Notes under the pieces: generated by a model
The model's database searches: none
Seen by the model: only the letters and a program-made list of their open reading frames with translations
Told to the model about the DNA's origin: nothing
NCBI GenBank assembly: GCA_017465145.1
Contig: JAFTWU010000003.1
Span: 84,579-148,578, forward strand
Direction: 5' to 3'
DNA length: 64,000 nt
DNA from: Clostridia bacterium
Lineage (GTDB): Bacteria; Bacillota; Clostridia; Christensenellales; Borkfalkiaceae
Part shown: positions 3,906 to 20,404 of the stretch, piece after piece
How positions within the stretch are numbered: position 1 is the stretch's first letter
How the letters are laid out: each line of letters begins with the position of its first letter
Program-made: the position numbers and the translations under genes

Positions 3906-3948
3906 ATTAAAGCGTTAAGCGTGAGCACGCTTTCCGCACCCCAAATAT

Positions 3949-4004
<56 letters not shown>

Positions 4005-4026
<22 letters not shown>

Positions 4027-5549
4027 CTAGATACTCGTTTGAACATTTTTGGTTCAAACGAGTTTTCTTTTATTTCTTCTAGGTTTTTGCCGTTTATTAT
4101 TTCCAAACACTCTTTTTTGTTAAGTCTTTTAGTTTCACGCTTATTGGTGTTGTATAGAATAATAACCTTATCATCAAATAAAAACACACGGTTAATAAAC
4201 GAGTTAAAGAACTCGTTTTTTTCTTGCCCATTTTCATACTGTTTTCTAGCGTAGTAGTTAAGAAACGTCCTAACGTCAACAAGTTCTAACGGCTTTATTT
4301 GTTTAGCTTTTTCAACGGCAATTTTTGCTTCCAAATCTTCTTGCGTGGCTTCCAAAGTTAGTAGTTTTTCTTTTGTGGACTTAGTGTAAATTCCTTCTTC
4401 TATCGCAGTTAATATTTTATCAATAGATTTTTTTACAGTTTTTAAGTCTTTTTCAAAGGCAAGTAGTGCCGTTGGCTTTTCAATTTCGGCGTTAAAGTTA
4501 TCAACTACCGTTTTAGCAATTTTATCAATGACCTTTGGTGTTAAAACGTATTCAACGGTTGCGCCGAAAACTACGCTTTCAATATAGTCTTGCTTAACAT
4601 TTTTCTTACTGCAACTATTTTTATCGGACTTTTTACCAAAACATTTATAGTAGTGGTAAACTCTTCCGTTGTGGCTTGTTCCCGTTTCTGCAGTAATAGT
4701 GTTACCACAATACCCACAGTACATTTTGCCACTTAAAATATACGGGTTTTCGTGGTAAACTTCACGCTGTCTATGTTTGTGTCCGTCCATAATTAAATTG
4801 CACTCCTTAAATAGTCTTTTGTCAACGATAGGTGGAACAACGTCGGGATAAGTTGTCCCATCAACTGTCACAATTCCTATATACTTTTCGTTACGAATCA
4901 TACGGCAAATTCCCGTCATCGTGAACGCTTTTCCATTTTTAGGCTTAATGCCTTGGCTGTTTAATCTATCAACTATTGATTTTCCTTTTTCGCCGTTACG
5001 ATAGCGATTGAAAACGTCTCTAACGATTTCGGCTTCTTCGTGGTTTACTACCCACTTTTTGTTAACGATATTATAACCAAGTAGGGTGTATCCACCAATA
5101 AAATGACCTTTTAGTAAACTTTCTTTAACGCCACGCTTTGTCTTTTGTGAAAGTTCGGCGGAGTAGTACTCCGCCATACTCTCTAAAACGCCTTCGATTA
5201 AAATTCCGCTTGCGTCGTCCGAAATGTTTTCTTTTGCCGATAAAACCCTAACGCCGTTTTTCTTTAACTTTGCTTTATAGTTTGCGCTATCGTACCTATT
5301 ACGAGCAAAACGGTCTAATTGATAAACTAAAACGTACTCAAAATGTTTCTTTTTACTATCGTCAATCATTTTAAGAAACTGCGGTCGTTTATCCGACGTG
5401 CCCGTAAGCGCACGGTCTATGTATTCGGCGATAATGGTAATATCATTTCTCCTTGCAAAATCGTAGCACTCACGTAGTTGCCCTTCAATAGATTGTTCGG
5501 TTTGTGCGTGTGAACTAAATCTTGCGTAAATTACTGCTTTCTTTTTCAT
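4005..5549 (-). CDS. Large serine recombinase (integrase of the element)
   Basis: This 514-residue protein is a large serine recombinase catalysing integration and excision. The resolvase-type catalytic domain spans about residues 3-150; Ser12 in YARFSS is the likely nucleophile, followed by the LVYQLDRFARNRYD core. The Recombinase domain follows (about 155-270), then a zinc ribbon starting CGYCG with further Cys in YYKCFGKKSDKNSC, then a coiled coil (about 360-425). The final codons lie inside tRNA-fMet, with the stop in the T-loop coding bases, so its C-terminus (GCGCGI) is partly borrowed from the tRNA. The start overlaps the stop of the small upstream gene (ATGA). Confidence 0.93.
4033..4070 (+). 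terminator. Element-supplied terminator behind the tRNA
   Basis: ACTCGTTTGAAC (4033-4044) pairs perfectly over 12 bp with GTTCAAACGAGT (4052-4063), loop of 7, then TTTTCTTTT. It lies inside the 3' coding part of the recombinase gene but reads as a rho-independent terminator for the tRNA. It may also serve as a recombinase arm site, which cannot be told from sequence. Confidence 0.7.
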
Positions 5550-6004: not shown

Positions 6005-7138
6005 TTAATATTTTATAAAATTATTAAATTTTTTCTTCGTGGGTTTTCTTGAAAGATTTTCACGTTGTTTAGCAACCAATTTTACTTCTTCAAGTTCGTT
6101 TGGTGCGTATTTAGATAAGAACTTTATAAATTCCTTATGTTGTTGTAGTTCGGGAATTTGCTTTTCGTATTTTCTTAGTTCATTAAAAAGATACTCTTTG
6201 TCCTTATCGGTTGTTTTCTTTTCTTCTTCAAGCAGTTTGTATTTGGCGATTAAGCCAACAACTTGCTTTTCAAGTCCACTCTTAAAGAAAGGCTTTTTGC
6301 CGTTAATAGCATCTTCAAACGCTATTAAATACTCTTCCAAAGGTTTTAATTCTTTTGAAAGGGTATTTTTCTTTTCTTCAAGTTTTTTCATTTCCCACTC
6401 GTATTTAGTTGTGTGTTTTTTGTTGCTTCCAATCTCGCCACGGTCTAAGCCGTAACGACAAGCAACTTGCTCGTAAAAATCATCTTGTAAATTTCCAAAC
6501 GAAACTTGTCCGCCTCGTTGTTCCCAAAAGTCAGAAGAACATATCTTAGGGAAAGAGAGAGCATTGTACTCGTATATCCCTTTTCCGTTAACGTCTTTTG
6601 CTTGTATGGGAGACCCTTTCTCGTTTCTTAAAACTTTTCCGTCACTACCTTTTGCGTAGACTTTCTTTTTGCCTTGGTCTACTATTGGGACGTAGTAAAG
6701 TTGCAAGTGCGGTGTAGTTTCATCAAAATGGATTACGGCAGACAAAATATTTTCGTCCGTGCCGTGATAACCGATTTCTCTAAGAACGAATTTATAACAA
6801 TCGTTAAAAAATTCTAAAACTTTTTGTGGTGGCTGTTCGCCTTGCACATAGCCAAGTCTTTCAAAGAACGTTTTATCCGACGTTACTATAATTCCTTCAA
6901 AAGCAACCGACTTTTTCGTGTCCTTAAAAGTAGCGTTTGTTTTGGTGGCGATACTTTTCCATTCGGCGTTCATACCGTTTGGGGACTTTTTGAAATATAG
7001 ATTTAGCGGAGTTCTTTCCACGTCTATATCTTGATTTCGGTTACTCCTTGACGTTCTTTCAGTTTCAGCACCGATTTTACCGAGCGAATTTTTTGTAAAC
7101 TTTTGAACTCTAATTACCTGATAACTAATATTTTTCAC
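6005..7138 (-). CDS. MobV-type relaxase (Pre/Mob family)
   Basis: This 377-residue protein is a plasmid mobilization/recombination enzyme that would nick one strand at an origin of transfer. The metal-binding motif HxDExTPH is intact (HFDETTPH, residues 137-144). The N-terminus has the conserved basic SYQVIRVQKF opening with an Arg/Ser/Asn-rich RTSRSNRNQDID segment typical of the family, and the C-terminal third is a coiled coil (about 245-375). No type IV secretion genes or replication gene are present, so the element must use a helper for conjugation. A ribosome site (GGAGG) precedes the start. Confidence 0.88.
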   Translation of the reverse strand: MKNISYQVIRVQKFTKNSLGKIGAETERTSRSNRNQDIDVERTPLNLYFKKSPNGMNAEWKSIATKTNATFKDTKKSVAFEGIIVTSDKTFFERLGYVQGEQPPQKVLEFFNDCYKFVLREIGYHGTDENILSAVIHFDETTPHLQLYYVPIVDQGKKKVYAKGSDGKVLRNEKGSPIQAKDVNGKGIYEYNALSFPKICSSDFWEQRGGQVSFGNLQDDFYEQVACRYGLDRGEIGSNKKHTTKYEWEMKKLEEKKNTLSKELKPLEEYLIAFEDAINGKKPFFKSGLEKQVVGLIAKYKLLEEEKKTTDKDKEYLFNELRKYEKQIPELQQHKEFIKFLSKYAPNELEEVKLVAKQRENLSRKPTKKKFNNFIKY

Positions 7139-9411: not shown

Positions 9412-9476
9412 ATTGTATGATATTATATAAAAAATAAGAAATTTTGCGAAAATTATAATTTATTTAATGACTAAAT

Positions 9477-9590
9477 GTGTCAAAATAAATTTATAACCCT
9501 ATTGACACTGATGTCATAAATGCTTGACAATGAATATTATGTGTGGTATAGTTATTGTGTCAAAAAAGAATTATAACCCTATTGATACTG
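9477..9590 (+). promoter_or_regulatory. Kinase promoter flanked by two 34-bp direct repeats
   Basis: A near-consensus promoter TTGACA (9524-9529), 17 bases, TATAGT (9547-9552). Copies of one sequence lie on both sides, at 9477-9510 and 9557-9590, exactly 80 bases apart and differing at four or five positions. Each copy is itself bounded by GTGTCAA and TTGACAC (TTGATAC in copy 2). This looks like a pair of operators for an autoregulated toxin-type operon. Confidence 0.7.
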
Positions 9591-9601
9591 AAGGAGTTAA
9601 T

Positions 9602-10459
9602 ATGATAGACTTTTCAAAATATGAAAAAACAAATACTTATTATGGTGGGACAGAGCGTAAATTTGGCGTGAACGTTGAAGGCTTTGAATATATGATTAAA
9701 TTTCAAAAACACGATAATTTTGGCGTAAAAAGAAATAATCATATATCGGAGTACCTTGGTTCTCATATTTTTGAATTGCTTGGATTTGAATCGCAAGATA
9801 CGTATCTTGGGACGTATGAAGAAGAGCAGGTTGTAGCGTGTAAAAATTTCGTTAGTGGTGAAACGCAATTCGTTCCTTTTAATGATGTAGGGGAAAGTTC
9901 TCTTGAACAAGACAAAGAAACGTACCAATATTCTTATCAAGATATTATGCAAATGCTCAGAGATAACGTAAAACTTACGAGTGTTGAAGAAACGATAAGT
10001 ATGTTTTGGGATATTTACGTAGTAGATGCTTTAATAGGAAATTTTGATAGACACGGTGGTAATTGGGGATTCTTAAAAAAGAATAATAAGTATACGCTTG
10101 CACCTGTTTTTGATAACGGCTCGTGTCTTTATCCTAAACTTAAAGATGAAGAAGAAATGCAAAGTATTATGGAATCTGAAGAGAAAACAAATTTAAGAGT
10201 ATATGGATATCCTACGTCACAAGTTCAGTTAAACGGCAAAAAGAGTTCTTATTTTGAGGTAATAAACTCCTTAGAGTTTAAAGAGTGTAACGATTCAGTT
10301 ATAAAAATTTGTGAAAGATATTCTCAAGAAAAAATAAACGAGTTAATAGATGAAACTTGCTTTATAACAGATATTCAAAAAAGTTTTTACAAATATATAT
10401 TAAGGCAAAGATTTGAAAAGATATTACTTCCCGCCTATAAGAAATTAACGGAGAAATAA
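9602..10459 (+). CDS. HipA/CtkA-like serine/threonine kinase (toxin candidate)
   Basis: 285 residues when started at ATG 9602, which follows AAGGAG; an upstream in-frame TTG is actually the -35 box and is not used. The protein is a single-domain HipA-type kinase: catalytic NFDRHGGN (Asp149) and metal-binding FDNG (Asp171) are intact, and no separate HipA N-terminal domain is present, as in CtkA-like proteins. Such kinases phosphorylate host targets (GltX for HipA) and cause dormancy. The next gene follows after one base, so they form a bicistron on the defence side of the element. The partner is not a standard HipB. Confidence 0.8.
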   Translation: MIDFSKYEKTNTYYGGTERKFGVNVEGFEYMIKFQKHDNFGVKRNNHISEYLGSHIFELLGFESQDTYLGTYEEEQVVACKNFVSGETQFVPFNDVGESSLEQDKETYQYSYQDIMQMLRDNVKLTSVEETISMFWDIYVVDALIGNFDRHGGNWGFLKKNNKYTLAPVFDNGSCLYPKLKDEEEMQSIMESEEKTNLRVYGYPTSQVQLNGKKSSYFEVINSLEFKECNDSVIKICERYSQEKINELIDETCFITDIQKSFYKYILRQRFEKILLPAYKKLTEK

Positions 10460-10460
10460 A

Positions 10461-11429
10461 ATGAGAAAGCTAACAACAACGGGCTTTATTTGTCTTGAAG
10501 ACGATTATAAGTTCATTTATAAAATTGCTAAAATTGAATACGAAGAATGGGAAGATGGAGCATTCAACTATAGATTCCGTCCGTTTTATAATGTTATCAA
10601 TATGCTTCCTCCAAATTTGTTTCAAGGTATACCAGGACTTGATTTGAGTTTAGAAAAAGCGGTATATGAACGAAAGAATATCGTTCCTACTTTTATTTCT
10701 GAAAGAACTCCAAGTGAACGCCGTGAAGATTTATGGGAGTTAATGGAAGAAAGTGGAATGCAAGCATTAAATCGCTTAGAATGGCTTATTAAAACAAATA
10801 AAAGATACTCTGGAGACAGATTCTTTGTTATGCCGTATGATGGAAAAGATTTTATAAATTACAACGTCGTTTCCATGTATGATTTGGTAAGAAGGTCAGA
10901 CAGTATAAACAAGAAACTACTTGATATTATTTGTTTCGGCGATTATCTTAATTCTAGTGAAATTATAATTGATGATAAGTCACGATTATATTATTATCAG
11001 TTATTGATGCCAATGTATATTCGTGAATTTACGAGGAAAGAAGAAATAAGACAACGAGGTATAGAACGAGCACGTGCAAACAATGTATATAGAGGTCGTG
11101 TGCAAATTAAAATAGACCCTTTGTTGTTTGATAGGGTTGCTAATGACTATATTCATGGAAGAATATCGGTAGACCAAGCGGTTAGTGTCTTAAAAGTAAG
11201 CAAGTCAACTTTTTTTAGAAGATTGTCTGAAAGACAGACGCGCTTTAAGAATTATATTTTACAAAAAGGTTTAGAAAAGGCAAAGGCGGAAATTTTAAAG
11301 CAAATAGTTTTTAATGACTCAAACTTGTCTAATCAACAAAAAGAAAATTTTCTAAACGTGATTGATTCTTATTCAAAAGTAAGCGATATTAAGGATATTT
11401 TAACTTTCTTAAATAACTTAAAAAAATAG
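10461..11429 (+). CDS. Unknown partner of the HipA-like kinase with C-terminal HTH
   Basis: 322 residues, starting one base after the kinase stop with GGAG as ribosome site. The N-terminal two thirds is not recognised (rich in Tyr/Arg; YRFRPFYNVINMLPPN). Residues about 215-255 (IDPLLFDRVANDYIHGRISVDQAVSVLKVSKSTF in sections) match the resolvase/Hin-type helix-turn-helix, so it should bind DNA. By position it may be the antitoxin and repressor acting on the flanking 34-bp repeats, or a substrate-recruiting partner. Both are inference. Confidence 0.65.
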   Translation: MRKLTTTGFICLEDDYKFIYKIAKIEYEEWEDGAFNYRFRPFYNVINMLPPNLFQGIPGLDLSLEKAVYERKNIVPTFISERTPSERREDLWELMEESGMQALNRLEWLIKTNKRYSGDRFFVMPYDGKDFINYNVVSMYDLVRRSDSINKKLLDIICFGDYLNSSEIIIDDKSRLYYYQLLMPMYIREFTRKEEIRQRGIERARANNVYRGRVQIKIDPLLFDRVANDYIHGRISVDQAVSVLKVSKSTFFRRLSERQTRFKNYILQKGLEKAKAEILKQIVFNDSNLSNQQKENFLNVIDSYSKVSDIKDILTFLNNLKK

Positions 11430-11495
11430 AAAAAGCAAATTTTTATAGAAACAACTAAACAATTGCAATAGTAGAGAAACAAAGGAGAAAATTTT

Positions 11496-12056
11496 ATGGA
11501 ATGGATAAATTTGGCGGCGCTAGTTATTATCCCGATTTTGGCTGTCATTATAGCACAAAACTTACAAGATAGAAGCGAAAAGCGCAAGGATAAAATGCGT
11601 GTTTTTTCTCACTTGATGTCTTATCGTTCTTTTGGTTACGTGGACCAATACTCGGTAAACGTTTTCAACTCAGTTCCTATCGTTTTTTATGACGATAAAG
11701 AAGTTATAGAGAAATATAATGCTTATTTGAAGTCGTTAAACATTAAGCCTGAGGATGTTCAAGTAAAACAAAAAGAAATCGAAGACAATAAAACAAAGAT
11801 GCTTGAAGCGATGGCAAAAGCGTTAAAATATAAAAACGTAAATTGGGAACTTATTCAAAATCCCTACGTTCCTAATGGGTTGATAGACCAAATTAATGCA
11901 GAAAACACCTATAAACGTGGACAATTAGAAGTTATTAAATTAGTTTCTACTATGGCGGCTGCGCAAACAGCTATGAATGCAAAGAATCCAAAAGTCGCGA
12001 GTAGTGAGGAACACATTGAAGAAATTAAAGAAGAAAAGAAAACGGGAGAACAATAA
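11496..12056 (+). CDS. DUF6680-like membrane-anchored protein
   Basis: 186 residues. A single N-terminal membrane segment (about 4-20, LAALVIIPILAVIIAQNL) is followed by a basic RSEKRKDKMRVFSHLMSYR stretch and a helical cytoplasmic part, ending in a Glu/Lys-rich tail. This is the layout I associate with DUF6680 proteins found beside restriction genes. The stop overlaps the mod start (TAATG), so it is cotranslated with the methyltransferase and belongs to the defence operon. It starts after AAAGGAG. Role unknown; anchoring or sensing at the membrane is a guess. Confidence 0.65.
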   Translation: MEWINLAALVIIPILAVIIAQNLQDRSEKRKDKMRVFSHLMSYRSFGYVDQYSVNVFNSVPIVFYDDKEVIEKYNAYLKSLNIKPEDVQVKQKEIEDNKTKMLEAMAKALKYKNVNWELIQNPYVPNGLIDQINAENTYKRGQLEVIKLVSTMAAAQTAMNAKNPKVASSEEHIEEIKEEKKTGEQ

Positions 12057-13591
12057 TGCCTACGTTAGAATGGATTGGAAAAGATAAGGTTTTAAATCAT
12101 CATCAAGAAGTGCCGTTTAGGATTCTTGATAAAAAATATACGTTTAATGCGGAAAACTCCGAGAATATGATTATTCACGGGGATAATTTGCTTGCGCTTA
12201 AATCCCTTCTTCCCCAATATGAAGGACGTATAGATTGCATTTATATCGACCCGCCTTATAATACGGGAAATGAAAAATGGGTTTATAACGACAATGTAAA
12301 CGACCCGAGAATTAAAAAATGGCTTGGTGAAGTTGTTGGTGCAGAAGGCGAAGATTTATCAAGACACGATAAGTGGCTTTGCATGATGTATCCTAGATTG
12401 AAATTACTTCATAAGTTGTTATCGGAAAAAGGCGTTATTTTTATTAGTATTGATGATAACGAGCAAGCAAACTTAAAATTGATATGTGATGAAATATTTG
12501 GTGTTCGCAATTTTATTGCAAATATATGCCACAAATCACGAAGTAGTATATCAAATGATTTAATTTTGAGCCCAAATCACAATATTGTACTCTTTTACGC
12601 AAAAAATATTGATAATGTTTTTGCAAGAAGAAGACAATTTAGAATGGTAGCAGATGAAACAGAATTTAAATTAGACGATAACGACGGAAAGGGAAAATAT
12701 AAGCTTGTACCAGTAGATGGCCCTGGCGGTGCAGCAAAAGGTAATCCATATTATGAGTTTTTAGGAGTTACTGGATATTGGAGATATAGTAAAGATACAA
12801 TGCAAGAGCTGTATGAAAAAGGAGAAATTGTTAAAAGAAAAACATCCTTGTCGCGTAAATATTATTACTCTAAAGCAATAGAAAAAGGTGGAAAATCTTA
12901 TTCTACTTGGTGGGATGATGCAGGTTCAGCAACAAATGGGACAAACTTAATAAAAGATATATTCAACGAAAAAACTTTTGATACTCCCAAGCCACTCGAT
13001 TTATTAGAGAGAATTGTTAAAATATCTACGCAAAGTAATTCAATAGTTTTAGATTCATTCGCTGGTTCAGGAACTACTGCTCAAGCGGTGCTAAATATAA
13101 ACAAGCAGGATAATGGGAAACGCAAGTTTATCCTTGTGGAAATGATGGATTACGCGGATACCATTACAGCTGAAAGAGTAAAACGTGTTATAAATGGTTA
13201 TGGCAAAGACGATAAAGCCGTTGCAGGTGTTCCCGGCGATTTCACTTACTATGAACTTGGACAACCTTTGTTTAAGGATGACAAAAACTTAAACGAAGAA
13301 GTTCCTGAAGAAGAAATCCGTAACTACGTTTATTATATGGAAACGAAAAAGCCACTTGATACGGAAACAACGGACAATCCTTATTTATTAGGCAAGAATA
13401 ACGACACGGCGTATTACTTCTATTATAAAAAAGATGAAATTACTACGCTTAACCACGAATTTTTATCTACGATAAACACAAAAGCAACGGAATACATTAT
13501 TTATGCAGATAAATGCGTGCTTGCACAAGAGGTAATGGAAAAATTCAATATCGTATTCAAGAAAATACCACGTGATATTACAAGGCTTTAA
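12056..13591 (+). CDS. mod: Type III restriction-modification DNA methyltransferase (Mod)
   Basis: 511 residues, N6-adenine methyltransferase of the beta class: motif IV DPPYNTG at residues 65-71 precedes motif I FAGSGTT at about 336-342, the order seen in type III Mod subunits. Mod gives sequence specificity to the Mod-Res complex and methylates one strand of a short asymmetric site. The middle (about residues 150-300), which holds the target recognition region, is more AT-rich than the ends, as is common where recognition domains are exchanged. It overlaps the preceding gene by one base; res follows after 11 bases. Confidence 0.92.
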   Translation: MPTLEWIGKDKVLNHHQEVPFRILDKKYTFNAENSENMIIHGDNLLALKSLLPQYEGRIDCIYIDPPYNTGNEKWVYNDNVNDPRIKKWLGEVVGAEGEDLSRHDKWLCMMYPRLKLLHKLLSEKGVIFISIDDNEQANLKLICDEIFGVRNFIANICHKSRSSISNDLILSPNHNIVLFYAKNIDNVFARRRQFRMVADETEFKLDDNDGKGKYKLVPVDGPGGAAKGNPYYEFLGVTGYWRYSKDTMQELYEKGEIVKRKTSLSRKYYYSKAIEKGGKSYSTWWDDAGSATNGTNLIKDIFNEKTFDTPKPLDLLERIVKISTQSNSIVLDSFAGSGTTAQAVLNINKQDNGKRKFILVEMMDYADTITAERVKRVINGYGKDDKAVAGVPGDFTYYELGQPLFKDDKNLNEEVPEEEIRNYVYYMETKKPLDTETTDNPYLLGKNNDTAYYFYYKKDEITTLNHEFLSTINTKATEYIIYADKCVLAQEVMEKFNIVFKKIPRDITRL

Positions 13592-13602
13592 GAGGTAAAA
13601 TT

Positions 13603-16215
13603 ATGGAATTAAAAAACTTTCAAAAACAAGTTATAAGTGATTTGAATCGCTATTGTGAGTTATTAAACTCTACGAATAGCGTTGTTAAAGCCTACAACGA
13701 TTATTGGTTAGAAAAAGGCGTTAGGGTTGGTTTTGATTCTATTCCTACATACAAAAACACGATTGAAAATACTCCGCACGTTTGTTTCAAAGTTCCTACG
13801 GGTGGTGGTAAAACATTTTTGGCGTGTAATTCGTTAAGAACTATTTTCGGCAACTTGCCAAGTAAAAAAGCAAAAGTTGTCGTTTGGCTTGTTCCGTCTG
13901 AAGCAATTCTTACGCAAACGTTAAAGAATTTATCAAATCCTGCACATCCGTATAGGCAAAAGATTGAGTCGGATTTTAATGGCAGAGTTCAAGTTTATAG
14001 CAAGCAACAAGTTTTAGACGGACAACAATTTAACCCTACTACAGTAAACGAGCAACTATCTATTGTGGTAATGAGTTTTGATAGTTTCCGTATTAAAAAC
14101 AAAGAAGGCAGAAAGGTTTATCAAGAAAACGGAAACTTGCAACAGTTTACCAAGTTTATTTCTACTCCTGAAACGCTTATAGAAGGGGTTGATGATACTG
14201 CGCTCATTCAAGTATTAAATCAACTTTCTCCCGTTGTGGTCGTTGATGAAAGCCATCATACTACGGGTGAATTAAGTGTGGAAATGCTTAAAAACTTAAA
14301 TCCTTGCTTTATTCTTGACTTAACCGCTACACCAAGAAAGAATAGCAATATTATTTCTTATGTAGATGCGGCACAACTTAAAGCGGAAAATATGGTTAAA
14401 CTTCCCGTTATTGTTTACAATCGCCCGTCGCAAGAAGAAGTTATTGCCGATGCGATTGACTTACGCAACCGTTTAGACGAACTTGCTAAAACGAATACGG
14501 GTGGACGTTATATTAGACCTATCGTCTTATTCCAAGCACAACCAAGAAATGGTGAAAACAAGGAAACTTTTGACAAGTTAAAAGAAAAACTTGTAGAAAA
14601 CGGCATTCCTGCGGAAGAAATTGCAATTAAGACGGCGGAAATCAATGAAATTAAAGATAAAGACTTAATGTCACCTGACTGCAAGATAAAATATATCATT
14701 ACGGTTAACGCTCTTAAAGAAGGTTGGGACTGCCCCTTTGCATATATTTTAGCAACGCTTGCAAACAAGACTTCAACTGTTGACGTAGAGCAAATTTTAG
14801 GACGTGTTTTGCGTTTGCCTTACACAAAACAAAATACGAGTAAGTTCTTAAACCTTTCCTACGTGCTTACAAGTTCTAACGATTTCCACGCTACGATTAC
14901 GAAAGTAATTCAAGGACTTAACGATGCTGGCTTTAGTAGTAAAGATTACCGTGTGGCAGAAGAAAAACCTGTTGTTGAACCAGCACCGAAGCCTGTACAA
15001 CAAGAAATTGCGTTTACACCGCCTACGGTGGATGAAGAAGAATTTTTGCAGTTTGATAGTTCGGCACTTAAAGCAATTATCGAAGAAAGGCAAAAAACGG
15101 AAACGCCTTCTACTGCTATTGACGATATGTTGGCAAGTGCAGAAGTTAAGAGTGATACTTATGATGAAGAATTAAAAGCTCTTCAAACTGAACCTTTAAG
15201 TGATTTACCGTTGGAGGTAAGAAGTAAAGTGACTACATATAGAATTTACGATGAATATAAAGACGAAGCCTTGGCGTTAGAAATTCCGCAGTTCTATTAT
15301 AAGTCCGAGAACAGTTTATTTGCTTTCTTGGATGGCGATTATAAAGAACTTGTTAGCAAGGAATTTTTATCCGACGGTTTTACGCTGAAAGATAAGAGCG
15401 TTGAAATTGATTTCCGTTCAGCAACCGAAGGCGTTGCAGAAGTTGACGTTAATAAAAACGAAAAACCGAAATATCGTTTTATGGCAGAAGCTGAAAGCGA
15501 ATATTTCAAAGAAATGTTCAAAAATCAAGCACCTGAAAGCCGTGTAAGGAATTGCAAATATCAAATAAAGAAAATTCTTGAAACGCTTGATATTGTTTCA
15601 AGTGGCGAATTGACCGCTTATATTGACCGTGTTGTGGAAAATATGAACGGTGACGAACTTGCAGCGCTTGAAAAGAACGTTCACGGTTTTGCTATTAGAA
15701 TTAAAGACAAAATCAATAAACTTCTTGATGAATATCGTCGTGATAGATTTAAGCATTTAATTGAAACGGGTAAAATTGTTTGCATTCCGTCGTTTAAGTT
15801 AAAAAGTGAAATCAATCCGGGCGAAACGTTCTCGTTCTTGTCAAAGTCTTTGTACGCTGAAGAACAAACGATGAACGCTTTTGAACGTAAAGTTATTGAA
15901 AAAGTTGCGTCTATGCCTAATATTAAGTGGTGGCATAGAAATATTGAACGTCACGAGTTCTGTATAAATGGTTTTATTAACCATTATCCTGACTTTATCG
16001 TTATGACGAATAGTGGTTATATCGTGATGATTGAAACGAAAGGCGAGCACTTAACGTCGAACGACGATAGCCGTGAAAAAGCCGAGCTTGGCAAGATGTG
16101 GCAAGCGCAAGCAGGTAGTAAGTTCCGTTATTATATGGTTAGCGAGAATGATATTGCAAGTAATCCTGACGCTACGTCTTTCGATAAATTCTTGAATATT
16201 ATTAAAGATTTATAA
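13603..16215 (+). CDS. res: Type III restriction enzyme, Res subunit
   Basis: 870 residues. SF2 translocase core: Walker A PTGGGKT (about 65), motif II DESHHT (about 214), motif III LDLTATPR, motif VI QILGRVLR. The C-terminal endonuclease has a PD-ExK pattern, YPDFIVM then IETKGEH (about 796-815). Together with Mod it cleaves unmethylated DNA bearing head-to-head sites. All key motifs look intact, so the system is predicted active. It shares the operon with the OLD-family gene that begins nine bases after its stop. Confidence 0.93.
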   Translation: MELKNFQKQVISDLNRYCELLNSTNSVVKAYNDYWLEKGVRVGFDSIPTYKNTIENTPHVCFKVPTGGGKTFLACNSLRTIFGNLPSKKAKVVVWLVPSEAILTQTLKNLSNPAHPYRQKIESDFNGRVQVYSKQQVLDGQQFNPTTVNEQLSIVVMSFDSFRIKNKEGRKVYQENGNLQQFTKFISTPETLIEGVDDTALIQVLNQLSPVVVVDESHHTTGELSVEMLKNLNPCFILDLTATPRKNSNIISYVDAAQLKAENMVKLPVIVYNRPSQEEVIADAIDLRNRLDELAKTNTGGRYIRPIVLFQAQPRNGENKETFDKLKEKLVENGIPAEEIAIKTAEINEIKDKDLMSPDCKIKYIITVNALKEGWDCPFAYILATLANKTSTVDVEQILGRVLRLPYTKQNTSKFLNLSYVLTSSNDFHATITKVIQGLNDAGFSSKDYRVAEEKPVVEPAPKPVQQEIAFTPPTVDEEEFLQFDSSALKAIIEERQKTETPSTAIDDMLASAEVKSDTYDEELKALQTEPLSDLPLEVRSKVTTYRIYDEYKDEALALEIPQFYYKSENSLFAFLDGDYKELVSKEFLSDGFTLKDKSVEIDFRSATEGVAEVDVNKNEKPKYRFMAEAESEYFKEMFKNQAPESRVRNCKYQIKKILETLDIVSSGELTAYIDRVVENMNGDELAALEKNVHGFAIRIKDKINKLLDEYRRDRFKHLIETGKIVCIPSFKLKSEINPGETFSFLSKSLYAEEQTMNAFERKVIEKVASMPNIKWWHRNIERHEFCINGFINHYPDFIVMTNSGYIVMIETKGEHLTSNDDSREKAELGKMWQAQAGSKFRYYMVSENDIASNPDATSFDKFLNIIKDL

Positions 16216-16224
16216 GGAGAAATA

Positions 16225-18084
16225 ATGTACATACATTCAATAAAGTTAACGAATTACAAGTCTATTGGCAGCTACGATGAAGATGAAATCATTATAGAGC
16301 CAAAAGTTACCGCTATTATAGGAAAAAATGAAAGTGGCAAGAGTAATGTTTTAGAAGGAATATCTAAAATAAGGTTTTTGTCAAAAAATGATGCTGCTTT
16401 TAACGTTGAATGCGTCAATAGACAGGCGGAAAGCGGAACCTTTAATTCATTTCTCGTAACATTAAAGCATAGTCAAGATGAAATTGAAAAGGGTGCTAAT
16501 ACTGATACGAAAATACTTATAACAAAGGATTCATGTTCTGCAACGGGAGGTGTTGTTGGTTTTTATACAAATACAATTAAAATTTTTCTTACTGTGTTAG
16601 TTGAATTTTTGAAAGGCATTAACAACAATCCTTTTGGTTTATCGGGACAAGACTACACTAATTATACAAACTGTTTGAATGAAACACAAAAGGAAGATAA
16701 TATAAATTTTTATAGAATAACCTATTTTATTAATTTGTGCAAAGGAAAAGTAAATAACATTCCACAAGATAAGCGTGAAAACTATAAAAACATATTGCAA
16801 GAAGTACAAACAGCGTGGGACCCCTTTGCTTCTGTTTTCCCGACTTTCTTCTATAGAAGTACAAACAAGACGCTTAACTCGTCATATAAGTATGATGATA
16901 TTAATAGTGAACTTAATAATCCAAATGTAAATCCTAATAGCTTAATAAGAGAGTTGGTAAAAATTATCGGCGTACCGCACAGCGACTTTCTTTCCGCTTG
17001 TCAACAAGGATACAATGCAACTCAAATAACTAAACGTGATAATATAAATAAGTTAATTAATGAAAAACTGAATAAAGCCTTTCATAGTTTTTATACAACG
17101 GAAAAATTATATTTAGGAATACAGTTTAATGCGGGTATTATAACCTTTACCATAAAAAAAGAAGATGGAGCAACTTTGGTCTTGTCAGAAAGAAGCAATG
17201 GTTTGAAGTGGTATTTAAATTTATTTATTGATATGCTTGCTAACGATGCTGTTAATAATAAAGTGGTATTCCTTTTAGATGAGCCGGGAACAAATCTACA
17301 CGTAAACGCACAAAGAGAATTATTACATTTATTTAATCACCTTGCAGAAAATGGAAATCAAATTGTTTATACAACACATTCACCTTATATGCTTGATATG
17401 GAAAACGACGGAATTCATCGAATTAGAGCAGTGGTTAAAAATGAAGATGAAAATACTTATATTTATAAAACAGCATACGATTCAAAAATTGCACCTGATA
17501 GTCAAAATGACACCTTAACACCTATTATTCGTGCCTTGGGTATGAATTTATTAGACACGTTTGGTCCTGCAAAAGACAAATTAAATATTATTACTGAAGG
17601 AATGAGTGATTATATTTATATTACTTTGATGGCAAAACAGTTGGGAATTGATTTAAGTAAAGTTGCCTTTATTCCTTCTCAAGGAGCAACAAACTGTGTA
17701 AACATTGCAATGATATTGCACGGATGGGGTTGTAAATATGTTGCATTATTTGATTACGACAAAGAAGGTGTTGAAGAGGGCGGCGAGCAGATAAGAAAAA
17801 CATTTGATTCTAAAATAGGGGAAAATTTTCAGTATATAGTTGATGTGAAACAGCAAGATGTTGACTCCTATACTTATAAACAGTCACCTAAAATGGTTGA
17901 AGATTTGATAACTCGTTCCGAAATTGATAGATTTTGCAATGATTTTGGTATATCGAAAAGAACAAGTAAATCATTAGTCGCAAAAATATTAAGCAACGCT
18001 GTTGAAGATGGTTCGTTTACATTGAACGAAAATGTTAAAACAAACTTTACCATGTTGTTTAACAAATTAGAATTGTTGGGATAG
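16225..18084 (+). CDS. OLD-family ATPase with C-terminal TOPRIM nuclease
   Basis: 619 residues. ABC-type ATPase: Walker A GKNESGKS at about residues 33-40, Walker B VVFLLDEPG at about 348, and a His switch in THSPYM. The TOPRIM domain follows with ITEGMSD (catalytic Glu about 458) and FDYDKEG (Asp-x-Asp about 510). OLD proteins are nucleases used in phage defence, alone or as part of Gabija-like systems; no UvrD-type partner is here. It begins nine bases after res with AAGGAG, so it is cotranscribed with the type III system and could be a second layer of it. Confidence 0.85.
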   Translation: MYIHSIKLTNYKSIGSYDEDEIIIEPKVTAIIGKNESGKSNVLEGISKIRFLSKNDAAFNVECVNRQAESGTFNSFLVTLKHSQDEIEKGANTDTKILITKDSCSATGGVVGFYTNTIKIFLTVLVEFLKGINNNPFGLSGQDYTNYTNCLNETQKEDNINFYRITYFINLCKGKVNNIPQDKRENYKNILQEVQTAWDPFASVFPTFFYRSTNKTLNSSYKYDDINSELNNPNVNPNSLIRELVKIIGVPHSDFLSACQQGYNATQITKRDNINKLINEKLNKAFHSFYTTEKLYLGIQFNAGIITFTIKKEDGATLVLSERSNGLKWYLNLFIDMLANDAVNNKVVFLLDEPGTNLHVNAQRELLHLFNHLAENGNQIVYTTHSPYMLDMENDGIHRIRAVVKNEDENTYIYKTAYDSKIAPDSQNDTLTPIIRALGMNLLDTFGPAKDKLNIITEGMSDYIYITLMAKQLGIDLSKVAFIPSQGATNCVNIAMILHGWGCKYVALFDYDKEGVEEGGEQIRKTFDSKIGENFQYIVDVKQQDVDSYTYKQSPKMVEDLITRSEIDRFCNDFGISKRTSKSLVAKILSNAVEDGSFTLNENVKTNFTMLFNKLELLG

Positions 18085-18150
18085 TATCACTTACCGTTAG
18101 AAGCATGATGAGGTAAAATATTAACTAATTAGAAAGGATATTGCTAAAAT

Positions 18151-18915
18151 ATGATAGATATAGGTATGCCAGATAGCGCAATAGAATATGATGGCTATAT
18201 GCTGATGAAGTTCACCACATCATACGAATATCAACAAGATTTTTTGAACGGAAATCTGTTTTTTAATACTGCTGATTTCTTCGCAAAATGCGATGATGAA
18301 GGACGAGGTGATCCCGACGAGGGAAATACATTTGTCGTAGATTATGAAAAACCCAATTTAATATCAGCAAACCTTGAAAAAGTAGGAGATGCCTACGCCA
18401 TAGTAGTGAGAGATTATTCCAATAATCCCGAATACTACAAGAGAGGAACAGTTTGGGATTACTCATCAGCTATCAACAGGCGTCGAAAAATCATTTCATT
18501 ATATACCGCCTTCGTAAACATCAAAGAGCAGCGAGTCGCACCTTTTGATAGCAGAATGAAAAAAGAATTTGGGGAATATGGAATTTTGATTTTGAATCGT
18601 CAAGAATTTTTTCAAAGAGTTTGGAAAACGATTTATGAATCAAAAAAATATTCGCAAGTGGCAATGGGGTTTTTAGAATATATTCCTCAAACTAAGCATC
18701 AAGGTCTCATTGACTGGAATCCTTTCTTAAAGAAAGAGAAGTTTGCATACCAAAATGAATTTAGAGCAACCTTTGTATCAGAGGATGATAAACCCATAAA
18801 AATAGAATTGGGGTTCTCTCTTCGAGATATCGCCGTTCCGATAATGATGAAAGATGTTAAAGAAATACATTTTGAAAATGGCAAACTGCTTTATCCGATA
18901 GCGTGTGATTCTTAA
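18151..18915 (+). CDS. DUF2971-like protein
   Basis: 254 residues. The N-terminus has the DUF2971-like layout: a short Lys-Phe strand (MLMKF), then FLNGNLFFNTADFF, then an acidic Gly-rich GRGDPDEG; near the C-terminus comes EFRATF and an Ile-rich end. I assign it by pattern only. Such proteins are frequent in defence islands, and the layout suggests to me an ADP-ribosyltransferase-like fold, which is speculative. AAAGGA lies 12 bases before the ATG. It forms a pair with the HNH gene 35 bases downstream. Confidence 0.55.
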   Translation: MIDIGMPDSAIEYDGYMLMKFTTSYEYQQDFLNGNLFFNTADFFAKCDDEGRGDPDEGNTFVVDYEKPNLISANLEKVGDAYAIVVRDYSNNPEYYKRGTVWDYSSAINRRRKIISLYTAFVNIKEQRVAPFDSRMKKEFGEYGILILNRQEFFQRVWKTIYESKKYSQVAMGFLEYIPQTKHQGLIDWNPFLKKEKFAYQNEFRATFVSEDDKPIKIELGFSLRDIAVPIMMKDVKEIHFENGKLLYPIACDS

Positions 18916-18950
18916 ATTTAAAAATCAAGTTGCTATAAGAGAGGAGAAAA

Positions 18951-19832
18951 ATGAACGATAGATGTATTATTTGTAACAACTTAGATGCTGAGTTTACACT
19001 GGAACATATAATTCCTTTTGCGTTGGGTAACAACAACTTTTCTTTGAGGAATGTATGTAAAAAATGCAATTCACTAATTGGTGAGAAAATCGATGTGTAT
19101 AGCACTAACAATATAATGGCTGAATTAATGCGAATGACAAAAAAAGTCCCCGGTCATTCAGGAAAAATTCCTTTCCCGTTTGCAAAAGGCAAAACAGAGG
19201 ATGGCTTTACTGTAAAGCTTTCATTAGAGATGAAACCCACAATTGAGCCCAAGGTATCTAAAAATGAAAATAAATACAATATTATAGCTGGCTCTCATGA
19301 TGAAGCAATTAACATTGCGGAAAAAATATTAAAAAGAAATGGTAAGCCTCCATTATCCAAATCTGCCAAAGAAATCATTCTATCAAAAGTGGCACACAAA
19401 GAACATCCAAGAATTAACTATAGTTTCGAATTAAACATTAACATGCTGAAAATAGAAGCTATAAAAATAGTTTTTGAGACAGTAGTATATAAACTCGGAA
19501 CATCATGTTTACAGGAAGCTGTGGTTGAAAAAATGCAGAATGTTATATTCAAGTACATATATGAGGATGTTTTGGATATTGAGTTTTTAAATGAAAATGT
19601 TTCATTTATAGATGGGGCAATGTTTAACTCTATCCGTGATGCGCTACAGGTTACGTTCAAAGAAGGTATTTTTCACATTATCCATTTTACTGTTAGAGAA
19701 AACGATACAGTGGTAACAGTGATTGTTGAGGGGATGCTCCCCATGGCAGTAAAATTAGACACAGTTGATTTAATAAACAATAATTCTCTGATTATTGTTG
19801 GATATCCGGGTAATCTTCTTATAAATGAATAA
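18951..19832 (+). CDS. HNH-type nuclease candidate
   Basis: 293 residues. The N-terminus carries a zinc-bound HNH pattern: CIIC (Cys5, Cys8), EHIIP (His19), Asn34 and CKKC (Cys36, Cys39). The remaining 250 residues are unfamiliar and may recognise the target. HNH nucleases of this form serve as restriction or abortive-infection effectors. It follows the DUF2971-like gene closely with a GAGGAG ribosome site and is the last gene of the element, ended by the terminator at 20048-20073. Confidence 0.7.
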   Translation: MNDRCIICNNLDAEFTLEHIIPFALGNNNFSLRNVCKKCNSLIGEKIDVYSTNNIMAELMRMTKKVPGHSGKIPFPFAKGKTEDGFTVKLSLEMKPTIEPKVSKNENKYNIIAGSHDEAINIAEKILKRNGKPPLSKSAKEIILSKVAHKEHPRINYSFELNINMLKIEAIKIVFETVVYKLGTSCLQEAVVEKMQNVIFKYIYEDVLDIEFLNENVSFIDGAMFNSIRDALQVTFKEGIFHIIHFTVRENDTVVTVIVEGMLPMAVKLDTVDLINNNSLIIVGYPGNLLINE

Positions 19833-19914
19833 TAGGTATAGTTGTCTGCATAGCTTAAGCAAATAAAGTTGATATACTTTCAAAAAATAAAAAATTTTTA
19901 AGTTTCGAAAGTGG

Positions 19915-20021
19915 ATTTGCTCCAGAAAATTGTGGAAAATACAACTATTCGGAGCGAATCTATTATAAAGTTGTTTATTTGCTCCAAAAAATACTATTTA
20001 ATGATATTATCTGGAGCAAAT
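19915..20021. repeat. Two evenly spaced inverted-repeat pairs near the element's right end
   Basis: ATTTGCTCCA at 19915-19924 and 19977-19986, and its complement at 20012-20021 (TGGAGCAAAT) and, with two changes, at 19950-19959 (CGGAGCGAAT). In both pairs the arms start 35 bases apart, and the pairs repeat with a 62-base period. The 344 bases 19833-20176 hold no gene apart from this array, the terminator and the right attachment site. Confidence 0.6.
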
Positions 20022-20047
20022 GCAATACTATCTAATTTTAACAAGTT

Positions 20048-20073
20048 AAAAGGCGAGAATTTTCTCGCCTTTT
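20048..20073. terminator. Intrinsic terminator at the element's right end
   Basis: GGCGAGAA (20052-20059) pairs with TTCTCGCC (20062-20069), extended by AAAA/TTTT on the outside. It ends the HNH gene. Confidence 0.8.
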
Positions 20074-20150
20074 ATGTTTAGGGTTTACAAACTTAAAATT
20101 ACGCCGACTGACCATTTGTAACTAAAAAGTTCAATTAGTTTAGCGCTTGT

Positions 20151-20160
20151 GCAACCACTA
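20151..20160. other. attR candidate (right end of integrated element)
   Basis: GCAACCACTA, identical to the tRNA-overlapping copy at 4020-4029. Joining the tRNA to what follows here restores a tRNA gene directly followed by a terminator, as expected for the empty site. Confidence 0.75.
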
Positions 20161-20161
20161 A

Positions 20162-20195
20162 AATAACGGTAGGCGTTTGCCTGCCGTTATTTTTG
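20162..20195 (+). terminator. Original terminator of tRNA-fMet, displaced by insertion
   Basis: AATAACGGTAGGC (20162-20174) pairs with GCCTGCCGTTATT (20179-20191) with one G-T pair, loop GTTT, then TTTT. No gene of the element reads into it usefully; in the uninterrupted chromosome it would stand a few bases behind the tRNA. Confidence 0.75.
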
Positions 20196-20206
20196 TGTTT
20201 CAGAAT

Positions 20207-20404
20207 ATGGTTTATGCCTTACGGCTTTTGGTATGGAGCTATATTTTGGGGTATAGCGACAAAAGACTTTTAACCGAGTTGCCGTTGTCAGAAAGTGGCT
20301 TATACCGTGTAAAAAGTAAAATAGAAGACAAAGTTTATCAGTTATACATAGTTAATGGGTTTGTTACCCTAGATGAAGTAATATCAAACAAAATAGTTGA
20401 ATAA
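20207..20404 (+). CDS. Doubtful small ORF beside the element
   Basis: 65 residues if started at ATG 20207; a longer version would start inside the terminator. The second half (LPLSESGLYRVKSKIEDKVYQLYIVNGF) reads like real protein, the first half less so, and there is no ribosome site. It may be a remnant. Low confidence. Confidence 0.3.
   Translation: MVYALRLLVWSYILGYSDKRLLTELPLSESGLYRVKSKIEDKVYQLYIVNGFVTLDEVISNKIVE

Follow-up and report, generated by a model that had tools for sequence, protein, structure and literature searches.

A type III restriction-modification operon with additional genes on a mobile DNA island of a gut bacterium

Type III restriction-modification (R-M) systems are commonly regarded as two-gene systems, in which Mod places its methyl groups on a single strand of an asymmetric site, and Res travels with Mod along the DNA and cuts it where it is unmodified, at sites that stand head to head. 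In the 64,000-nucleotide stretch of Clostridia DNA analysed here (the window), such a mod-res pair is enclosed by two tightly packed further genes, which raises the question whether the four genes form one defence system, as a sequence-only reading had proposed, or whether the outer two are accessories or chance neighbours.

The four-gene run and its island

The genes for a DUF6680 protein, Mod, Res and an OLD-family ATPase-TOPRIM protein lie head to tail on the plus strand (11496-18084), spaced by -1, 11 and 9 bases, the DUF6680 stop codon and the mod start codon sharing one base (TAATG). This spacing and the intact catalytic motifs, both described in the sequence-only reading, were confirmed when coordinates, lengths and gaps were rechecked and the motifs aligned. 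The features of the region are as follows.

4005..5549, minus: large serine recombinase, the island integrase (Resolvase, Recombinase, Zn_ribbon_recom)
4020..4029, plus: GCAACCACTA, putative left attachment core; overlaps tRNA-Met (3948-4025) at its 3' end
6005..7138, minus: Mob_Pre relaxase (PF01076, E 1.7e-26)
9476..9591, plus: promoter-like site (9524-9552, consensus match only) between 36-nt direct repeats (9476-9511 and 9556-9591)
9602..10459, plus: HipA-like gene, candidate PDC-M03A defence gene (PF07804, PDLC04340)
10461..11429, plus: possible partner of the HipA-like gene, weak PDC-M03B match (PDLC04347, E 7.5e-4)
11496..12056, plus: DUF6680 protein, at the place 5' of mod (PF20385, E 7.1e-36)
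12056..13591, plus: type III Mod, N6-adenine methyltransferase (N6_N4_Mtase, E 1.6e-40)
13603..16215, plus: type III Res, SF2 helicase with C-terminal PD...ExK nuclease (ResIII, E 9.4e-18)
16225..18084, plus: OLD-family ABC ATPase with C-terminal TOPRIM, at the place 3' of res (AAA_21, AAA_15, OLD-like_TOPRIM PF20469 E 1e-5)
18151..18915, plus: 254-aa protein with no assigned function (phrog_26561, E 1.3e-12), in the same block in the closest locus, L002
18951..19832, plus: HNH_5 nuclease gene (PF14279, E 4.1e-11), in the same block in L002
20151..20160, plus: putative right attachment core; like the left core a copy of GCAACCACTA, which occurs twice in the window
20160..20193, plus: strong terminator-like stem of 15 pairs

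None of 100 shuffles contained two copies of GCAACCACTA, a pattern that was picked after reading the sequence; longer tRNA-Met ends do not recur in the window, even when three mismatches are allowed, and the repeat is confined to the 10-base core. The island is probably mobilizable, given its Mob_Pre relaxase, and the stem at 20160..20193 is perhaps the displaced terminator of tRNA-Met. Judged from the gaps and from consensus scans, the genes of the run may be co-transcribed, with the 9476..9591 site as a candidate regulated promoter of the co-directional run. The HipA-like open reading frame (ORF) is listed from a TTG at 9524, with an ATG at 9602.

The core of the run is a typical type III pair. 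Among the PADLOC matches listed, Mod corresponded to MTase_III (2.6e-182), and Res matched REase_III (3e-89). Mod has the β-class motif order, DPPY (65-68) preceding FAGSGTT (335-341) with the target-recognition part between them, and it is this stretch (about 12420-13038) that is unalignable with L002. DPPYN was present in all 27 aligned Mod sequences and FAGSGTT in 25-27 of them, depending on the position. All 23 aligned Res rows retained the Walker lysine K70, motif II D215-E216, the Q and both R (R401/R404) of QxxGRxxR, and P796-D797, E811 and K813 of the C-terminal PD...ExK nuclease. Compared with L002, dN/dS was 0.016 for Res and 0.20 for OLD; both are under purifying selection. Among solved structures, Mod matched the type III Mods 4zcf (EcoP15I, E 1.7e-40) and 6k0w (E 1.1e-48), while a sequence search with Res found no relative at E 0.001. 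EcoP15I and EcoP1I share with the window the order Mod then Res, DPPY before FAGSGTT and the SF2 helicase with C-terminal PD...ExK, but the window operon has further genes packed against this core and its Mod is short (511 aa).

Genes beside mod and res in related loci

L002 has in common with the window a block that begins 12 bases upstream of mod and takes in mod, res, OLD, the 254-aa gene and the HNH gene, with 83-95% DNA identity in the common pieces between 12044 and 20234. In the place of DUF6680 it carries a SieB-family membrane protein (PF14163, E 3.5e-20), a domain that was not found in the window protein before mod, for which the only match is DUF6680. The unit seen in relatives thus differs from the four genes of the sequence-only reading, as it adds two downstream genes and leaves out DUF6680. 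Because the two loci are too close (Res 99%), they are not counted as independent.

At 36 further loci with a Mod relative, OLD is a direct neighbour once (L002) and DUF6680 never; in the remaining 35 neither gene lies beside mod-res. The mod-res core consequently has no need of either gene. Twenty-four of these loci came from IMG/VR, five of which show no Res, so that their far side is partly unseen; plasmid Mod matches were opened for 9 of 22 records (window Mod) and 3 of 15 (Mod of L048, a DUF6680 locus described below), and the row for L037 was dropped as its contig is the same as that of L013. No second locus with all four genes was found in the searches made, and a conserved four-gene unit was rejected; together with the SieB-family replacement in L002, this leaves the proposal of a single combined system unsupported.

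The gene directly behind res is variable. L018 and L020 have their flanks, res and most of mod in common (83-94%), and behind res one carries Abi_C and the other AbiH. Elsewhere this place is taken by HamA (L076) or Piwi (L081), which may simply be the first genes of other systems. Speaking against a regular accessory position there, 16 of the 31 Res loci have no ORF on the same strand that begins in the first 60 nt past the end of res, counting type III operons alone; short ORFs behind res in L036, L046, L047 and L083 were counted as present, and the family scan leaves these four out. On the other side, a slot upstream of mod in E. coli is filled variously by OLD with DUF2130, by a UvrD-like protein and by a short remnant. 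These relatives suggest that mod and res have fixed neighbouring positions at which additional genes are swapped.

We therefore favour, at a probability of roughly one in two, a type III R-M operon whose two flanks are exchangeable slots for accessory anti-phage genes, with OLD as a second-line effector. In the window, DUF6680, as a membrane protein, would fill the 5' slot, and the OLD ATPase-TOPRIM nuclease, followed by the 254-aa protein and the HNH gene, would fill the one on the 3' side. The strongest competitor, which we consider plausible although less probable, is that an ordinary type III pair has acquired unrelated defence-island neighbours, in which case OLD (as class 1, e.g. P2 Old) and DUF6680 would each work alone and the short gaps would reflect compact packing. 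The scarcity of both genes beside related Mods is in its favour, as is the PDC-M03-like pair on the same island, and adjacency overstates cooperation because defence genes cluster in islands anyway; the exchange of one abortive-infection gene for another directly behind res in L018 and L020 argues against it.

Contexts and relatives of the OLD and DUF6680 proteins

The choice between exchangeable slots and chance neighbours also depends on where the relatives of the two outer genes are found. The OLD protein combines an ABC ATPase with its signature motif and, following it, a TOPRIM domain with E and DxD. GKNESGKS, ERSNGL, DEPG, THS, E458 and D510/D512 were invariant in a five-row alignment (A3); in another of five rows that included more distant OLDs (A1), GxNESGK, RSxG, DEPG, THS, E458, D510 and D512 were retained, and in one of ten rows (A5) D510 was invariant and D512 variable.

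When OLD relatives were sampled blind to their context, OLD immediately followed a type III res or a BREX operon at five of seven loci (four of six without the window), with gaps of 9-39 bases, which argues against chance neighbours. The gene lies directly behind res in the window and L011, and directly behind brxL or brxHI in L050, L052 and L051, with PglZ present in all three. Stand-alone relatives, which favour independent action, were found in L009 (behind glutamine synthetase) and L010, and a prophage of E. coli SCU-113 carries a stand-alone relative of the Citrobacter OLD. In a tree of 21 rows, the window, L002, the three BREX-linked rows and one solo row formed one group with a support of 98/100; the tree takes in 12 of the 15 IMG/VR OLD loci, leaving out L053, L063 and L066. 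The OLD of L053 is a fragment with an early end (44% identical, residues 1-225). A search of genome contigs with the OLD protein alone returned one locus, L002, and further searches around G442, G012, G589, G522 and G342 gave no new loci.

Three unrelated arrangements place an OLD gene next to a type III operon: that of the window and L002, that of L011, and that of E. coli H6 and Citrobacter (L089). The order mod-res-OLD with tight spacing is found in the window, L002 and L011. The E. coli H6/Citrobacter island (helicase-DUF4391-OLD-DUF2130-Mod-Res) likewise has an OLD-TOPRIM gene packed against type III mod-res, but there OLD lies 5' of mod and is 19% identical to the window OLD over 233 aa, and the Mod and Res are distant from those of the window. 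An ABC-ATPase ORF about 3.3 kb before mod in L032, weakly like the Citrobacter OLD (E 1e-5), was not counted as adjacent.

The PADLOC matches listed for the window OLD included Old (3.5e-26), AriA (4.4e-22) and GajA (best 5e-14), and its best solved match was the T. scotoductus OLD 6p74 (E 1.3e-10). With this protein and P2 Old, both of class 1, it shares an ABC ATPase and a TOPRIM in a single chain. Excerpts of PMC10568477 describe class 1 OLD as a lone gene with no other candidate defence gene close by, and GajA as an OLD protein; the window OLD, 9 bases behind res, is not stand-alone and does not fit class 1. Gabija (OLD class 2) was rejected, since no UvrD/PcrA/Rep-like helicase (GajB) was found among the proteins of at least 111 aa scanned between 4005 and 22712, as was PARIS (AriA-AriB), since ATPase and TOPRIM are fused in one gene here rather than separate. 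OLD/TOPRIM modules have been described as backup effectors of BREX in excerpts of PMC12839542, which do not treat type III operons as OLD hosts, and our literature search found no paper on OLD as a backup effector of type III systems. The likeness to BREX lies in the three BREX-linked OLDs of the window branch, situated at the 3' end of their operons, and in the backup role proposed for both; the host operon of the window is instead type III R-M, and no BREX family (core PglZ, BrxC/PglX) was found among eight window proteins (Pfam) or the PADLOC matches listed.

DUF6680 overlaps a type III mod in three of the six contexts examined (the window, L008 and L048), which again is less easily reconciled with chance neighbours; the mods of L008 and L048 belong to another type III branch. 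In the other three (L049, Vibrio and Klebsiella) it lies apart from mod, in accordance with a gene that works alone. No match was found in viral contigs with the DUF6680 alignment A4, and the window protein had none among plasmids or phages. The L048 protein as query matched four Vibrio plasmid records and two records of one Yersinia phage (E 9e-3), and nine Burkholderia plasmid records matched a DUF6680 query over 46 residues only. The DUF6680 protein of the window probably has one N-terminal membrane helix, as predicted from its sequence; no relative was found among solved structures at E 1, and a single-sequence fold model reached a pLDDT of 41. A full-text literature search for DUF6680 found no paper, and the loci described here give the family a first context.

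OLD and DUF6680 were thus never found together elsewhere, as random association would have it, while each is separately tied to restriction operons. They do not look like random passengers, and in this respect the sequence-only reading is supported, although not in its single four-gene system.

Proposed action and wider meaning

In the exchangeable-slot reading, OLD would be kept inactive by its own ABC ATPase until an infection passes restriction. The trigger might be an anti-restriction DNA mimic, a stalled fork or DNA ends, upon which OLD would cut DNA, damaging the phage and possibly the cell. SieB is known for a role in superinfection exclusion, and DUF6680 could be a separate membrane effector, excluding phage or damaging the cell, like the SieB-family protein of L002.

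A closer coupling, in which Res or Mod recruits OLD to link cleavage to end degradation and DUF6680 tethers the complex at the membrane where phage DNA enters, would agree with the tight mod-res-OLD order. We nevertheless consider it improbable, as both genes are missing from nearly all Mod-Res relatives examined, OLDs of this branch also follow BREX operons, where the partners are of quite another kind, the combination of OLD with DUF6680 was found at no other locus, and a SieB-family protein takes the DUF6680 place in L002. Least probable of all is that OLD or its neighbours serve not against phage but to shield the cell from its own R-M system or to punish the loss of that system (addiction), for instance by acting on broken DNA: the sole support for this is the general knowledge that DNA is the substrate of OLD and TOPRIM proteins and that R-M systems can damage their own chromosome upon methylase dilution, and the named alternatives in the 3' slot belong to abortive-infection or defence families, not to repair proteins.

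Exchangeable flanks might tentatively be extended to a general rule, which we think rather unlikely to hold in full. Type III operons would then be a standard chassis with two fixed plug-in sites, the first upstream of mod and the second downstream of res, at which OLD-TOPRIM, Abi_C, AbiH, HamA, Piwi, DUF6680 and SieB are swapped whole while mod-res stays constant. The plug-ins would fire once restriction is defeated, one OLD branch would be common to this chassis and BREX, and DUF6680 would be a new SieB-like family of membrane effectors. Should type III flanks indeed be regular effector slots, the question of how cells survive anti-restriction proteins would gain a second class of host operon besides BREX, and a large number of unnamed genes beside res or before mod would become anti-phage candidates that can be listed and tested.

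Four genes with a Mod-Res core

The four genes lie on one strand at the coordinates proposed in the sequence-only reading, with spacings of -1, 11 and 9 bases, and their families were assigned by Pfam and PADLOC:
11496-12056, + strand, DUF6680 gene
12056-13591, + strand, type III methyltransferase gene (mod)
13603-16215, + strand, type III restriction enzyme gene (res)
16225-18084, + strand, OLD-like ATPase with TOPRIM domain (OLD)

Their catalytic motifs are indeed intact, and they are conserved in alignments of Mod, Res and OLD with relatives. DPPYN is present in 27/27 aligned Mod proteins, and 23/23 aligned Res proteins have the Walker lysine, motif II (DE) and both halves of PD...ExK (P-D and E-K), the window being included in both sets. 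GxNESGK, RSxG, DEPG, THS, E458 and D510/D512 are common to all five rows of the closer OLD alignment (A1); D512 varies among the ten, more distant rows of a second one (A5). The N-terminus of DUF6680 comprises a single hydrophobic stretch, WINLAALVIIPILAVIIAQ, and then a charged Lys/Arg-rich segment, which makes one membrane anchor likely.

The four genes had been read as one combined system, a view not supported by the 36 loci with a related Mod examined besides the window (24/24 from IMG/VR, 2/2 from genomes, nine of the 22 listed plasmid records, and L002, from a second Clostridia genome): OLD adjoins mod-res in one of them (L002) and DUF6680 in none. Res is visible in 19 IMG/VR loci; some of the other five stop within or just past mod, their 3' side unseen. 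OLD and DUF6680 are outside the Mod-Res core, and each is separately tied to restriction or defence operons.

OLD and DUF6680 beside other defence operons

The window OLD, used as query twice and blind to neighbours, identified seven distinct loci at E <=1e-20, with matches in four genomes each from the order (248 searched) and the phylum (398 searched), the genome of the window counting in both. OLD lies directly 3' of a defence operon in five of the seven (4/6 excluding the window). In L011, the C-terminus of a type III Mod (PADLOC E 4.1e-16) and a Res (3.7e-141) are followed 23 bases on by an OLD with 26% identity to that of the window; in L050 and L052 OLD is found 3' of pglZ and brxL (gaps of 32 and 39 bases), which in L052 are separated by a 303-aa gene, and in L051 24 bases 3' of pglZ-brxD-brxHI. 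The remaining two loci, L009 (downstream of glutamine synthetase) and L010, have solo OLD genes. A 21-member tree of OLD-like proteins, rooted for drawing only and with unusual composition in L009, L050 and L052, unites the window, L002, L009 and the three BREX-linked rows in a single group (support 98/100). A GmrSD_N gene stands behind the BREX-linked OLD of L050 (6986-8602), and L053 (2445-3125) contains an OLD fragment, cut short, with 44% identity to window OLD residues 1-225, perhaps a decayed solo copy.

A third, unrelated arrangement, helicase-DUF4391-OLD-DUF2130-Mod-Res, was identified in Enterobacteria (E. coli H6 and a Citrobacter plasmid). A DUF4391-to-Res query matched 57 of 5,426 E. 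coli genomes, with at least 80% covered in two. Four of the 57 were inspected (H6, two others and SCU-113): in the two others the DUF4391-mod interval is occupied by a UvrD-like protein of 900 aa in one case and by a 41-aa ORF with an ATP-binding annotation in the other, the aligned flanks of H6 and both slot variants showing 79-93% identity, and the match in SCU-113 is a solo OLD within a prophage.

DUF6680 is present in 2 of 248 genomes of the order and 3 of 398 of the phylum (again with the window's genome in both), as well as in Vibrio (four near-identical records) and one Klebsiella plasmid. It overlaps a type III mod by 1-4 bases in three of six distinct contexts, namely the window, L008 (Mod ~30% identical to that of the window) and L048, and lacks this overlap in L049, Vibrio L068 and Klebsiella L073. 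Weak matches on Burkholderia plasmids and a Yersinia phage are outside this count.

Gene exchange, a probable island and its promoter- and terminator-like sites

Among 31 loci with a Res relative (E <1e-20; window and L002 excluded, L037 dropped as duplicate), a same-strand ORF of at least 60 aa starts at most 60 bases from the end of res in 15 and is absent in 16, the ORFs being called mechanically and counted without a control set. Families were scanned for 11 of the 15: four have a match to an established defence family (Abi_C in L018, AbiH in L020, HamA in L076, Piwi in L081), another three to DUF4268, DUF4357/RAMA or SEC-C, and four had nothing above the Pfam cut-off. The Piwi-domain gene, directly behind res, occupies 10509-12800 of a Fibrella plasmid. 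Two IMG/VR contigs differ directly behind res:
L018, 13382-14233, Abi_C
L020, 13377-14903, AbiH

These contigs are closely related and share stretches in both flanks, most of mod, and res to ~20 bases before its stop (83-94% identity); past res, L018 carries Abi_C and a 264-aa ORF and L020 AbiH, and likeness is back at 15156 and 15748. Being alike on both sides and unlike just past res, the pair represents a gene exchange at the res end. L016 and L078 also share mod-res (88%) and diverge directly behind it; this pair is less telling, since their outer flanks are unlike too. The site 3' of res is more generally a variable slot.

L002 (Clostridia MAG, JAFXHX010000004.1) has three pieces in common with the window, 12044-12420 (89% DNA identity), 13038-19959 (95%) and 20006-20234 (83%). 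The unshared 12420-13038 corresponds to the target-recognition part of mod; within OLD, likeness drops to 78% at ~16554-16853. Protein identity is 99% for Res, 92% for OLD, 95% for the 254-aa protein (18151-18915), 99% for the HNH protein (18951-19832) and 63% for Mod, with dN/dS of 0.016 (Res), 0.20 (OLD), 0.27 (Mod) and 0.28 (254-aa gene); the HNH gene has a dS of 0.011, too low for such a reading. DUF6680 was not found in L002, where its place, 12 bases 5' of mod, is taken by a 213-aa member of the SieB superinfection-exclusion family (PF14163, E 3.5e-20). The 254-aa protein, whose gene accompanies OLD and HNH in L002, has no Pfam match and matches two PHROG families without assigned function.

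The 10-base GCAACCACTA has two copies in the window, at 4020-4029 (3' end of tRNA-Met) and 20151-20160; two copies occurred in 0/100 shuffles, for a pattern chosen post hoc from the sequence, and longer tRNA-Met end pieces have no second copy within the window. Two further genes are relevant here:
4005-5549, serine recombinase
6005-7138, Mob_Pre relaxase

Together with the repeated core, they suggest a ~16-kb integrated island in tRNA-Met, probably mobilizable, with the core at either end. The island ends and the relatives show boundaries other than those first drawn for the unit. In L002 an arm with terminal GCAACCACTA also lies 3' of the HNH gene; the stem-loop behind it is unlike that of the window, and likeness is back afterwards for tens of bases. 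Another such arm, with terminal GCAACCACT (15420-15428), adjoins a recombinase gene that matches the window recombinase at its start, and L002 may hold two elements in tandem at one site. A HEC-05 gene, behind the L002 block, lies between the arms at 12868-12877 and 15420-15428, ~2.5 kb apart.

From the HipA-like gene (9602-10459) through the HNH gene, all described genes point rightward. The best + strand promoter-like site of a consensus scan is at 9524-9552, between two 36-nt repeats, and the 60 sites listed of 66 (49 expected from shuffles) include no + strand site in the 66 nt between DUF6680 and the gene 5' of it. The sole 15-pair terminator-like stem is at 20160-20193; three weak + strand stems (5-6 pairs) are at 10668, 13680 and 15819, among nine found on both strands together against six expected. 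As these signals are consensus matches, a single transcript for the run is putative, and the defence genes may be expressed from the site 5' of the HipA-like gene. That gene and a weak PDC-M03B partner, with 1 base between them, fall within 9476-11429, and the two 36-nt repeats resemble operators.

Known systems and proposed working

Type III systems and OLD nucleases are already known, as is the role of OLD as an accessory of BREX, and Mod-Res as the first line of defence is established for the family. The literature search, with most subscription papers outside its coverage, found no title or abstract start describing OLD with type III restriction; none was found describing such an arrangement for DUF4391 or for SieB with restriction operons, nor was any mention of DUF6680. 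The OLD-type III arrangement may be in print in an ABC-ATPase survey, since PMC12839542 cites it (ref 52) for OLD in R-M-like systems. The context of the window OLD matches none of the classes given in PMC10568477, i.e., class 1 (single), class 2 (Gabija) and class 3 (retron).

In PMC12839542, OLD/TOPRIM modules are viewed as backup effectors of BREX, and PARIS is reported to respond to Ocr, an anti-restriction protein. By analogy with both, the window OLD is most likely a second-line nuclease behind Mod-Res, which its own ATPase would keep silent as long as restriction is not evaded. Because a SieB-family protein occupies the place of DUF6680 in L002, DUF6680 itself most likely represents a separate membrane effector.
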